Assembly: GCA_021286765.1 (NCBI GenBank)
Contig: JAJTBS010000002.1
Location: forward strand, 310,001-374,000
DNA from: Holophagaceae bacterium
Lineage (GTDB): Bacteria; Acidobacteriota; Holophagae; Holophagales; Holophagaceae
Reading direction: 5' to 3'
Length of the DNA stretch: 64,000 nucleotides
The notes under the pieces were generated by a model that searched no databases, was not told the DNA's origin, and saw only the letters and a program-made list of their open reading frames with translations. Made by a program: the position numbers and the translations under genes. Shown here piece by piece: positions 24,598 through 34,740 of the stretch; positions within the stretch are counted from its first letter, which is position 1; each line of letters starts with the position of its first letter.

Positions 24598-27500
24598 TCA
24601 GCTGAGTGAAGTGGCGATCACCTTCTCCTTGCTGAAGAACTCGAGGATGTCCCCTTCCTTCAGTTCGTCGAAGCCGTCGAGGGAGATGCCGCAGTCGAGG
24701 CCGTTCTTCACCTCGGTCACGTCCTCCTTGAACCGCTTGAGGTTCTTCAGGCCGCCTTCGAACAGGACCGCTTCGCCCCGCTTGACGCGCACCTTGAAAG
24801 CCTTCTGGACCTTGCCTTCGGTGACGAAGGAGCCGGCGATGACCGCGCGGCCGATCTTGAAGAGCTGGCGCACCTCGGCCTGGCCGTGGACGGTCTCCTT
24901 CTCGGTGGCGTCGAGCATGCCGACCATGGCCTGCTCGATCTCTTCCGTGACCTTGTAGATGATGTCGTGGAAGCGCAGGTCCACGCCCTCCTCGCGGGCC
25001 AGCTCCTCGGTCTTCTTCTCGGCCTTGGTGTGGAAGCCGATGATGGTGGCCTTGGAGGCTTCGGCGAGCAGCACATCGTTCTCGGTGACGGTGCCGGCGG
25101 CGCTGTGGATGATGCGCACCCGAACCTTTTCGGTGCTGAGGCGCTCCAGCTGGCCCACCAGTGACTCGACGGAGCCCTGGGTATCGGCCTTGATGATGAG
25201 GGCGAGTTCCTTGACCTGGCCATCCTTGATGGTGCTGAACAGGGTCTCCAGGGTGGCACGCTGCTTCTGCTGGGCGGCCTGCTTGGCTTTCTCCTGGCGG
25301 AAGGCCACGATGCTGCGGGCCTTGGCCTCGTCCTCCACCACCTGGAAGTTGTCCCCGGCGCTGGGCACTTCCTCGAAGCCGAGGATCTGAACGGCGCTGG
25401 AGGGCCCGACTTCCGTGACCTTGCGGCCCAGGTCATCGAACATGGCGCGGACACGGCCCATGGTGGCGCCAGCCACGAAGATGTCGCCGGCTTTGAGGGT
25501 GCCGCGCTGGACGAGCAGGGTGGCCACGGGACCGCGGCCCCGGTCGAGGCGGCCTTCGATGATGGACCCGGCGGCGGGGCAGTCGTAGACGGCCTTCAGC
25601 TCCTTCAGGTCCGCCACGAGCAGGATGGTCTCGAGGAGCTCATCCAGGCCCTGCTTGGTCTTGGCGCTGACGAGGACGGCGGGCACATCGCCGCCGTAGG
25701 CCTCAGTCTGGACGCTGTGCTGGAGGAGGCCCTGCTGGACCTTGTCCGGGTTGGCGCCGGGCTTGTCGACCTTGTTGACGGCCACCACCAGCGGGACGTC
25801 GGCGGCCTTGGCGTGGTTGATGGATTCCACCGTCTGGGGCATGACGCCGTCGTCGGCGGCCACCACCAGGATGGCGATGTCCGTGACCTTGGCGCCGCGG
25901 GCGCGCATCTTCGTGAACGCCTCGTGGCCGGGGGTGTCGAGGAAGACCACCTGGCGCATCTCGCCGCTGTTCGGGTCCTTCACGTCTACGTGGTAGGCAC
26001 CCACATGCTGCGTGATGCCGCCAGCTTCGCCGGCCGCCACCTTGGTCTTGCGGATGGCGTCCAGCAGGGAGGTCTTGCCGTGGTCGACGTGGCCCATGAT
26101 GGTGACGACGGGCGGGCGGGACTTCTTCTCGCCCTGCACGTCACCGGACTCGTCGGCCATGATCTGGACGTCCTCTTCGAAGGAGACGATGTCGGCCAGG
26201 AAGCCGAATTCCCGGGCGATGTCCTTGGCCATCTCGGTGTCGAGGGGCTGGTTGATGGTGGCGAAGATGCCGCGGTGGAGGAGCTTGGCGACCACATCCT
26301 TGGCGGGGCGGTTGCACTTCTCGGCGAGTTCCTTGACCGTCACGCCTTCGGACAGCATGACGATGCCGATTTCCTCTTCGATGTACTCGCTGGCCACCTG
26401 CTGGGCGCGGGAGCGCGGCTGGCGGAGCTTCAGGTCGAGTTCCTCTTCCTTGCTCCGGACGTAGCCGCCCTTCTTCTTCTTGCCGCCCACATGGGCGCCG
26501 CGACCGGGGCCCTTCTGGCTGTTGGGATCAATGGGGCCGGAGGCCGGGATGGAGGGGCCTCGGCCGGGACCGCCGGGGCGGGAGCCCATGCCGGGTCGTC
26601 CGCCGGGGCCACCGGGGCGACCACCAGGGCCGCCAGGGCGCCCACCGGGACCGCCGGGGCCACGGCCGGGGCCACCCGGGCCACCGGGACGACCACCGGG
26701 GCCGCTGGGGCGACTGCCGGGGGCAGGCCGGGCCTGGGGGAGCTGGATGTAGCGGGCAGGTTCCGTGGAGCGCGGCGCGGGGGCCGGGGTATCCGAGGTC
26801 TTGATGCGGCTGAAGCCCTGGTCCGTCCGCATCTCCGTGATGGCGGGGGGGATGTAGGGGCGCCGGGTGGGGGTGACAGGCTGAACGGGCTCATGGCGCA
26901 CTTCGCCGCGGCCGGTGTTGGTGGCCATCTGCAGAACGGCCTTCTCTTTCTGCGGCATGCCCGAGCGCTGGACATTGCTGGGCGACTGACCCGGGCGCTG
27001 GACGATGGGCCGGGCTCCCGCTTCGGGACGGGGGCCGCCGACCGGCGTCTGGGGCTGGGGGGCCGCGGGGGGCTGGGCCGGGCGCGGGGCCACGGGACCC
27101 GTGGGACGCGCGGGGGGCAGCTGGATGTAGCGGGCGGGCTTGTCCTCGCGAGGGGCGGGGACCGGGGCGGCCGTGGACACCTTGAGCCGGGAGAAGGTCT
27201 CCTGCACGGGCTCGGCGGGGGCCGGCGCGGGAGCCGGAACCTTGGCGGGCGCCTCGACGACAGGAGCTTCGGCCACCACGGGTTCGGCGGCCTTGGGGGC
27301 GGGCTGCACCTCAGGGGCGGGTTCGGCCGGGGGCTCCGGCTTGGGCTCAGCCTTCTTCACCAGCACAGCCGGGGCGGGCTTGGCTGGCTCGGGCTGGGGC
27401 TGGGGCTCGGGCTTGGGCTCGACCTTGGGCTCGAGGCGGACGGCGGGAGCGGCGGGGGCGGGGCCCTTCACCACCTTCACAGCGGCGGAAGGCTTGTGCA

Positions 27501-27690
27501 GGGCGAGGGGCGGGGCTTCCTGCTCACCCTTGTGCTTGCCCTGGAAACCCCGGCGGAGCTGGTCGGCCTGGTCATCGGTGAGGTTGGAGCTGTGGCTCTT
27601 CCCCTGGAGGCCCAGACGCTTTTCGCAGGCCTCGATGACCTCCTGATTGGCGACTCCGAGCTCTTTGGCGAGTTGGTTGATGCGCAGCAT
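24598..27690 (-). CDS. infB: Translation initiation factor IF-2
   Basis: This 1030-residue protein starts with the IF2-N helical motif ([22 protein letters not shown]). A long Pro/Ala-rich then Gly-Pro-Gly-rich linker covers residues 60-400. The GTPase domain has G1 [13 protein letters not shown]3 DTPGHEAF and G4 NKVDKPG. Domains II-IV follow, with the fMet-tRNA-binding C-terminus ([24 protein letters not shown]). It is longer than E. coli IF-2 (890) because of the linker. It is third in the conserved order rimP-nusA-infB. Confidence 0.97.
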
Positions 27691-32821: not shown

Positions 32822-34657
32822 CTAGGGTTTCCTGGATTTGGGTTTGCCCGTCCGCGGGCCGGGCTTGCCCTGGGGGCGGGCGCCGGGGCCTTCCCGACGG
32901 GGACCCGCCGGCCGGTCGGCAGGCCCGAAAGACCGCCGTGGCCGGCCTTCGCTGCCCTCCGAACGGGGGCGGGCGGGGCGATCCGCGGGACCTGATGCGG
33001 GCCTGGGCCGGCGGACCTCGCCGTCTTCCCGGCGGGGCCGGGCTGGCCGTTCGGTGGAACCGAAGCTGCGGCGGGGGCGCTCATCACCCTCGTCCCGCCG
33101 GGGTCGGGCCGGGCGATCGGCAGAGCCATAGGTGCGGCGGGGCCGCTCATCGCCATCCTCGCGCCGTGGGCGGGCGGGACGGTCGGAAGAACCGAAGCTG
33201 CGGCGAGGTCGCTCATCACCCTCGTCCCGCTGGGGTCGGGCAGGGCGATCGGCAGAGCCATAGGTGCGGCGGGGCCGCTCATCGCCATCCTCTCGCCGTG
33301 GGCGGGCGGGACGGTCGGAGGAACCGAAGCTGCGGCGAGGTCGCTCATCACCCTCGTCCCGCCGGGGTCGGGCAGGGCGATCGGCGGAGCCGAAATTCCG
33401 GCGGGGCCGCTCGTCGCCTTCCTCACGGCGGGGGCGGGCAGGACGGTCGGCGGAGCCAAAGCTGCGGCGGGGGCGCTCATCGCCATCCTCGCGTCGGGGG
33501 CGGGCGGGACGGTCGGAGGAACCAAAGCTGCGGCGGGGACGCTCCTCACCCTCGTCGCGCCGGGGCCGGGCGGGGCGATTGGGGACCTCGTCGCGGTCCT
33601 CATAGCGCTTGGCGCGGGCTACGCGCTTGAGCTTGTGGTCGCGGCTCTCGGTGGGCTGGAAGATGCCCTCTTCGCCCTTCACGCCCGTGGAGGCGCGCAC
33701 CAGGCGGGCCTGGTTGCGGAGGACCTTCAGGGCCGCCTCCATGTCCGCGGGCATGGGAGCCGTGACGGTAACCTGTTCCTCTGTGATCGGATGCTTGAAA
33801 CCCAGCAGCTCGGCGTGCAGGGCCTGCCGGTCCAGCAGGGGGCTCTCCACACCGTAGACCTGGTCGCCCAGGAGCGGAAAGCCGCGGTCGGCAAACTGCA
33901 CGCGGATCTGGTTGCGGCGCCCGGTCTCCAGCTTGACCTCGACCACGGTGTGGCCGGGCAGGCGTTCGATGACGCGGTAGTGGGTCACGGCCTCCTTGGC
34001 GCCAGCGGGCATGCGCTTGCCGCCGCCGGGGCCCTTGCGCTCCTTGGCCACGGACATCTTGAGGGACTTGGCGTGCTCGATGAGATGGCCAGCCAGGGTG
34101 CCGCTGTTCTCCGGCAATTCGCCCACCAGCACGGCGAAATAGACGCGCTGGAGACGGTGCAGCTCGAAGTGCTTCTTCAGGCCGTGGAGGGCCTCAGGTG
34201 TTTTCGCAAAGACCAGCACGCCACTGGTGAATCGATCCAGGCGATGCACGATGTAGAGGTTGAAGCGCTTGAACCCACGGCGCCGGTAGGCCTCGGTGAT
34301 GGCCTCCGCCAGGCTGGGCTCGCCGCCCTGTTCGGCGGGCACCGTGAGTAAGCCTGCGGGCTTGAACACGAAGAGCAGGTGGTTGTCCTCCCACAGCGTC
34401 TCGAAAGGACCGGCCTTCAGCTTGCGCTCCGGGGGCAGCACCTCGTAGGTCTGCTCGGGATCGAAGGTCACCTTGACCGTGTCGCCCACCTTCAGGCGGT
34501 GGCCGTGTTTCTGCACGATCTCGCCGTTCACGGAGATGCAGTTGCAGTCGATGAAGCCCTTGGCCTGCCGGTGGCTGATGACCATGATCCGATGCAGCTC
34601 GGAAGCCAGGGCCGAGCCCTCCTGTTCCGCCTGCCACTCCCGTTCGATGCGTGCCAT
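32822..34657 (-). CDS. RluA-family pseudouridine synthase with long Arg/Pro repeat tail
   Basis: ATG 34657 is preferred (GGAGG eight bases upstream) over 34675; the product has 611 residues. Residues 10-75 form an S4 RNA-binding domain (HRIMVISHRQAKGFID). Residues 85-300 are the RluA catalytic domain, with the active Asp in VHRLDRFTSG, RNQIRVQFADRGFPLLGD near the end and HAELLGFKHP. From about residue 360 the tail is ten near-identical 22-residue units rich in Arg, Pro, Asp and Glu. The enzyme makes pseudouridine in rRNA or tRNA. The tail is probably disordered and binds RNA. The specific rlu subfamily is not decided. Confidence 0.88.
   Translation of the reverse strand: MARIEREWQAEQEGSALASELHRIMVISHRQAKGFIDCNCISVNGEIVQKHGHRLKVGDTVKVTFDPEQTYEVLPPERKLKAGPFETLWEDNHLLFVFKPAGLLTVPAEQGGEPSLAEAITEAYRRRGFKRFNLYIVHRLDRFTSGVLVFAKTPEALHGLKKHFELHRLQRVYFAVLVGELPENSGTLAGHLIEHAKSLKMSVAKERKGPGGGKRMPAGAKEAVTHYRVIERLPGHTVVEVKLETGRRNQIRVQFADRGFPLLGDQVYGVESPLLDRQALHAELLGFKHPITEEQVTVTAPMPADMEAALKVLRNQARLVRASTGVKGEEGIFQPTESRDHKLKRVARAKRYEDRDEVPNRPARPRRDEGEERPRRSFGSSDRPARPRREDGDERPRRSFGSADRPARPRREEGDERPRRNFGSADRPARPRRDEGDERPRRSFGSSDRPARPRREDGDERPRRTYGSADRPARPQRDEGDERPRRSFGSSDRPARPRREDGDERPRRTYGSADRPARPRRDEGDERPRRSFGSTERPARPRREDGEVRRPRPASGPADRPARPRSEGSEGRPRRSFGPADRPAGPRREGPGARPQGKPGPRTGKPKSRKP
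32915..33577 (-). repeat. 66-bp tandem coding repeats in the pseudouridine synthase tail
   Basis: Ten units of 22 codons (one of 23) run from 33577 down to 32915, with consensus RPARPRREDGDERPRRSFGS plus Ser/Ala-Asp. A second level is visible: two neighbouring 132-bp double units (around 33119-33250 and 33251-33382) differ by only a few bases, which indicates a recent duplication. All units stay in frame. Outer units are more diverged. Confidence 0.93.
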
Positions 34658-34740
34658 GGCGCCGCCCTCCGTCATCGCCCCGCGTCCTGATCAACGCCAA
34701 GCGGATCACCAGAAGACCATGAAATGGACCATGTTCCTAA

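Follow-up and report, generated by a model that had tools for sequence, protein, structure and literature searches.

A lineage-wide arginine-rich tail of fast-changing repeats on an RluA-family pseudouridine synthase of Holophagaceae, and its possible role as an RNA tether

A 64,000-nucleotide stretch of a Geothrix genome (Acidobacteriota; family Holophagaceae, whose members live in soil and sediment; named Geothrix and Holophagaceae relatives are 81-93% identical), hereafter the window, carries a gene in which the catalytic domain of a pseudouridine synthase is followed by a long array of charged tandem repeats. This raises the question of whether the array is a local accident of repeat expansion or a lasting part of the enzyme, and if the latter, what it might do. 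The reading we favour, at about even odds (probability near 0.5), is that this is a Holophagaceae-specific RluA-type synthase whose Arg/Pro-rich, probably disordered polyampholyte tail would act as an electrostatic RNA tether. The features of the locus are listed here in window coordinates.

32822..34675 (-), whole synthase gene, 617 aa from the listed start
33716..34657 (-), catalytic core with an N-terminal S4-like region, to about residue 320, with HRLDR at residues 144-148
33587..33643 (-), linker predicted at low confidence to be a basic helix, residues 345-363, directly before the repeats
33050..33577 (-), repeat units 1-8, 22 aa (66 bp) each, mostly in alternating 132-bp pairs
33248..33379 (-), 132-bp block formed by units 4-5, 3/132 mismatches against units 6-7
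33116..33247 (-), 132-bp block formed by units 6-7, 3/132 mismatches against units 4-5
32981..33049 (-), unit 9, 23 aa, the same 23 residues in the closest relative (L106)
32915..32980 (-), unit 10, 22 aa, in frame
32825..32914 (-), degenerate unit 11 (about 32849-32914) and the C-terminal end GKPKSRKP

The true start of the listed 617-aa frame is probably Met7 (position 34657), since orthologues open with MARxxxxW and this methionine is invariant in 20 sequences. In three orthologues from genus g16 a TGA stop lies just upstream of the matching conserved start; a reading of these as TGA codons inside the genes was rejected, as they are ordinary upstream stops.

The tail begins at residue 367. 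After the catalytic core, the 663 bp from 32915 to 33577 are filled exactly by a run of ten in-frame units, the first eight of 22 aa, the ninth of 23 and the tenth of 22. The count of ten in-frame units agrees with the first-pass annotation, and its observation of two nearly identical neighbouring 132-bp blocks also holds, as units 4-5 and 6-7 differ by only the three mismatches given above. Tandem Repeats Finder reported an array at 33018-33574 with a period of 132 and a score of 743, against a best score of 149 for other arrays in the window. DNA identity among units 1-8 is 73-98%, and unit 9 is 55-56% identical to these eight; the values of 27-48% obtained for units 10 and 11 are too low, as these units were compared one codon out of register. 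The linker helix at residues 345-363 has a pLDDT of about 53-59 in a structure model of the core only, and its residues K348, R351, R354 and R357 do not vary among 20 Holophagaceae sequences. The opposite strand and the other frames also hold long open frames, which were read as shadows of the array in GC-rich DNA, and the frame control described below favours the annotated frame. Elsewhere in the window, Gly/Pro/Arg-rich short tandem repeats occur at 26591-26734, in the N-terminal region of an apparent translation initiation factor IF-2 (24598..27690, (-)).

By its sequence, the gene product is an RluA-family pseudouridine synthase, and presumably catalytically active. The class assigned at first pass was upheld by matches to both PF00849 (108.1 bits, cut-off 26.8) and TIGR00005 (197.1 bits, cut-off 192.7, residues 18-320), each above its curated cut-off. 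The catalytic motif, of the HRLDxxTSG type, is intact (H144, R145, L146, D147); R145 and D147 are invariant in 30 sequences, and H144 and L146 are conserved in at least 90%. We take D147 of the HRLD motif to be the catalytic aspartate. The S4-like region gave sub-threshold matches to PF01479 (19.5 bits, cut-off 22.8) and PF13275 (21.4 bits, cut-off 24.6). The core-only model, built from a more diverse alignment, has a mean pLDDT of 84.5, and among PDB entries its fold comes closest to E. coli RluD (2ist; 342 aligned columns, TM 0.55/0.62).

Assignment to a named member of the family was rejected in each case. RluD identity fell to a score of 127.3 against 351 bits for NF008385, and to placement in a separate clade from E. 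coli RluD; RluC (NF008249, 88.1 against 378 bits), TruC (NF008321, 75.4 against 328 bits) and the RluA equivalog (NF007543, 69.1 against 286 bits) scored lower still. In a quick-search tree of 75 rows, whose deep branches are weak and which left out five loci and the paralogue L004 (motif unmatched), the window sequence grouped with 12 other Holophagaceae rows in a 13-member clade (SH-aLRT 99) that excludes E. coli RluD. Three further TIGR00005 matches in the same genome extend past the core by an amount within 0-34 aa and lack the tail. The top TIGR00005 match of this genome is another gene (C1:249850-250788, 259.7 bits, tail-free 330-aa frame).

How widely the tail occurs was answered by orthologues across the family. 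The core orthologue is present in 69/77 Holophagaceae genomes and in 11/11 genera. The remaining eight genomes (G004, G021, G030, G011, G081, G091, G097 and G099) show only distant paralogues, and three of them (G004, G021 and G030) reach a completeness of 95% or more. Whether through real loss or through assembly gaps, the gene is missing there, and the family can probably do without it. Of 70 rows fetched, two pairs (L062/L156 and L068/L136) are duplicates, leaving 68 genes, 56 of them complete and 12 cut by a contig end. A basic C-terminal extension of 63-376 aa past the core profile was found in all 56 distinct complete Holophagaceae genes. For comparison, 80/80 RluA-branch rows, from other genes and other phyla, have 0-34 aa after the core; these derive from 85 control loci, among which L207 gave no match and four RsuA-type partial matches below 50 bits (L206, L210, L211 and L212) were dropped because their extension figure counts unaligned catalytic domain, and some controls are one gene represented twice (for example L076/L198 and L094/L195).

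The form of the tail differs between genera. It measures 161-352 aa in Geothrix (32 complete genes) and 40-252 aa in the other genera. Most Geothrix tails are tandem arrays, with a 22-aa spacing in 196 of 257 parsed cases and variants of 21, 20, 23 and 31 aa. Divergent periods occur in L034 and L063 (93 bp) and in L062 (102 bp); the last, a Geothrix tail represented by L062/L156, has no 22-aa array and is a case of a repeat replaced inside the genus. Tails of the other genera are basic and have different repeats or no obvious ones; that of genus g16, whose genomes measure 0.9-1.2 Mb, is a short Lys/Arg stretch of 63-66 aa. The C-terminal end is RK plus one residue in 31 of the 32 complete Geothrix tails and RRS in one. 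Since a basic tail of low hydrophobicity lasts across genera, the 22-aa array can be regarded as its Geothrix form.

The tail is thus a constant, lineage-wide trait of Holophagaceae on an enzyme branch that is otherwise tail-free in the rows sampled. The first-pass view of the tail as unusual for its enzyme family therefore stands for the RluA-branch rows sampled, but not within Holophagaceae, where it is the rule, nor for pseudouridine synthases more broadly, as the Ensifer RsuA-type enzyme L212 and eukaryotic Cbf5 have charged tails. Searches with the tail found no match to a known domain in Pfam (E<=1), PHROG (<=0.001) or PDB sequences (<=0.01), and a search of its own genome at E<=10 returned this gene only. 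In 199 genomes of the phylum, matches at 1e-10 were found in 13, all from the window's genus. Among titles and abstract openings we found no account of a repeat tail on any bacterial enzyme of the RluA type, and our literature search found no paper combining 'Geothrix' and 'pseudouridine'.

In many of 38 loci searched, as far as contigs reach, the orthologue has the same neighbours as in the window, namely genes for an M16 peptidase, a short hypothetical protein, a pterin-dehydratase-like protein, an SDR and a DNA-glycosylase-like protein; these gene names are our reading of the sequences. These neighbours give no clear hint of the function of the synthase. Elsewhere in the window's own genome, two DEAD-box helicases (L213, G000:C5:33533-34054, and L214, C4:374974-375456, both with flanks) have basic low-complexity tails. 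The L214 tail, in which R, K, P, D and E abound, has a composition close to that of the synthase tail. Basic low-complexity tails are therefore not confined to the synthase.

The composition of the tail sets it apart both from the core and from what its bases would encode by chance. The charged fraction is 0.48 in Geothrix tails, 0.225 when their nucleotides are shuffled and 0.255 in the core; the hydrophobic fraction is 0.044, 0.110 and 0.310 in the same order. Arginine outnumbers lysine 2194:256 in Geothrix tails and 813:639 in the cores; the window tail contains 29.5% Arg, 1.6% Lys and about 19% acidic residues. Net charge is positive in 56/56 tails (0.097-0.288 per residue). In Geothrix it averages 0.128 per residue, against 0.134 in nucleotide shuffles, and as a sign of selection in this genus net charge was rejected for being no higher than in shuffles. 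In the other genera (25 rows representing 24 genes) the figure is 0.187 against 0.119. A full-length structure model assigned no secondary structure after residue 360, although the low confidence of the tail is no proof of disorder, because this model is poor as a whole (mean pLDDT 43.8).

These charge data bear on the possibility that the tail mainly self-associates and concentrates the enzyme in RNA-rich condensates, like other disordered regions of alternating charge. The window tail is a strong polyampholyte, with a charged fraction of 0.51, a net charge of +0.12 and a kappa of 0.153 by our own implementation. This kappa falls inside the range of 0.1-0.4 that is linked with self-association of Cbf5 tails in PMC11528048. 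The basic low-complexity tails of the two DEAD-box helicases described above point the same way. However, aromatic residues are few in the tail, and charge segregation does not exceed that of shuffles of the same residues (z=0.7 in the window, -1.7 to 1.3 in Geothrix rows), while in other genera the charges of many tails are more evenly interspersed than in shuffles, with z down to -2.9. Charge blocks in the style of condensates were rejected on this ground. The result speaks against selection for blocks more than against condensates as such, and we consider self-association as the main role unlikely.

The array itself turns over quickly. Across the 32 complete Geothrix genes, identity between 22-aa units is 85.0% at a distance of two (127 pairs) and 82.7% at a distance of four, but 67.6% between neighbours (132 pairs) and 68.1% at a distance of three. 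As units two apart are more alike than neighbours, the natural working unit is the 132-bp pair and not the single 22-aa unit. Unit identity within arrays was 0.748 and reached at most 0.700 when labels were shuffled 300 times, so units resemble others of their own genome more than those of different genomes.

The first-pass suggestion that copy number is changing was borne out between species, the level at which it was compared, with one genome per species. L016 and L022 share 97.3% identity across the final 300 codons of the core, and the lengths of their tails are 44 aa apart, equal to one 132-bp step; the two align with a single 132-bp gap at 89%, and their assemblies consist of one and two contigs. 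L022 and L047, with 96.6% core identity, have tails of equal length. Among distinct Geothrix genes, 222 pairs have the same core length and more than 85% core identity, and just 2 of these agree in tail length. In the closest relative of the window gene, L106 (97% core identity), the 23-aa unit near the end is identical and the preceding units differ, as expected if the interior of the array is remade and its edge is left. A contig ends in or near the tail in 10 of 42 Geothrix genes (L009, L025, L026, L028, L031, L032, L033, L052, L055 and L065). The near-identical repeats probably break short-read assembly at the array, and copy numbers taken from drafts consequently need care.

Such turnover could reflect tolerated repeat expansion, in which slippage or recombination adds copies to a disordered C-terminus with no role beyond being harmless. 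Sequence, period and length vary freely, close pairs rarely agree in tail length, other genera have different repeats or none, and the net charge of Geothrix tails is what their base composition would give, all as this explanation would predict. The encoded peptide is nevertheless constrained. Between equal-length units, pN/pS is 0.37 in frame (35 arrays) and 1.69 and 1.85 in the two shifted frames; for units 1-8 of the window it is 0.17, or 0.23 with wider parsing, all values being descriptive since the units are related copies and the pairs are not independent. Furthermore, the tail is retained in every complete gene, even in the genomes of about 1 Mb of genus g16, and the basic end beyond the array is conserved. 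We therefore regard harmless expansion as rather improbable as the full explanation. From these patterns, selection appears to hold the reading frame, the kind of residue and the basic end, and neither the exact sequence nor the exact length.

The weakest alternative is a protein-docking or spacer arm, reaching for instance to ribosomal proteins or a helicase, with the repeats as copies of a short linear motif: an RPxRPRR core does recur in Geothrix while the residues between change, but it is not kept in other genera, where the basic tail is, making this reading very unlikely.

The electrostatic tether is favoured because the tail is kept in all 56 complete genes, is constrained in frame, and combines high charge and low hydrophobicity with a preference for Arg over Lys. 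Under this model, alternating Arg-rich and Asp/Glu-rich stretches would keep the enzyme near RNA loosely and reversibly, and the folded core would pick the uridine in the presumed RNA target while the tail tethers. Two-unit blocks of 132 bp would be gained and lost in register, and in this way the array would be rebuilt. In accord with the tether, Arg-rich low-complexity regions are reported as enriched in bacterial RNA-binding and rRNA-processing proteins in PMC6821194. With about 19% acidic residues, the RNA affinity of the window tail would be weaker than that of a plain basic tail, which counts against the tether. Acidic clusters of RNA-binding proteins can suppress nonspecific RNA binding, according to PMC8348266, and the DEGDE stretches may plausibly have such a role.

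Taken together, the tail is broader than one gene, being a conserved character of the lineage built from fast-changing repeats, with a function that we infer to lie in RNA association. It provides a natural series of tail lengths attached to a single conserved enzyme; along this series residue composition and reading frame are kept, whereas the sequence and the number of copies change. This series makes it testable whether a disordered polyampholyte tail helps an RNA-modifying enzyme find its RNA, and whether repeat number tunes the effect.

Compared with RluD, RluC, RluA and TruC, the Holophagaceae enzyme is alike in catalytic domain, HRLDxxTSG motif and fold. It differs in scoring below all four E. 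coli-type equivalog cut-offs, in forming its own clade, and in a long C-terminal tail that is absent from the 80 comparison rows. A bacterial likeness is the RsuA/RluB-type synthase of Ensifer (L212, 1149 onward (+), 566-aa frame), which also has a long charged C-terminal extension. This single inspected example belongs to the other branch of the superfamily and shows no tandem repeats by eye. It suggests that charged tails arose on the other synthase branch too. The Arg-rich low-complexity regions of bacterial rRNA-processing, helicase and RNA-binding proteins, as described in PMC6821194, share the arginine enrichment, whereas the tail of the window gene is a clean tandem repeat with turnover from species to species; the word 'pseudouridine' is absent from the main text of that paper.

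The closest described parallel is the KKE/D tail of Cbf5/dyskerin (PMC11528048). It is likewise a terminal, highly charged, net-positive alternating polyampholyte on a pseudouridine synthase, with similar kappa, and is described there as promoting accumulation near nascent rRNA. Yeast Cbf5 without its lysine-rich tail shows strongly lowered rRNA pseudouridylation, reconstituted particles are reportedly active without it, and the tail peptide forms salt-sensitive coacervates with RNA (PMC11528048). KKE/D-type regions are absent from archaea according to this account. When the features that define KKE/D regions were applied to the window tail, its charge fraction, net positive charge and kappa agreed and lysine doublets were lacking. 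The window tail uses arginine in 22-aa repeats on a stand-alone bacterial enzyme, in contrast to the lysine doublets and guide-RNA particle of Cbf5 (PMC11528048). That it is an independently evolved arginine counterpart in the full sense, recruiting the synthase to nascent rRNA and tuning RNA bodies through its number of 132-bp blocks, we consider distinctly improbable. The two tails are not homologous, with no demonstrated common ancestry, and the likeness is one of analogy; if the tether reading is true, a strategy described for eukaryotic Cbf5 arose in bacteria as well.
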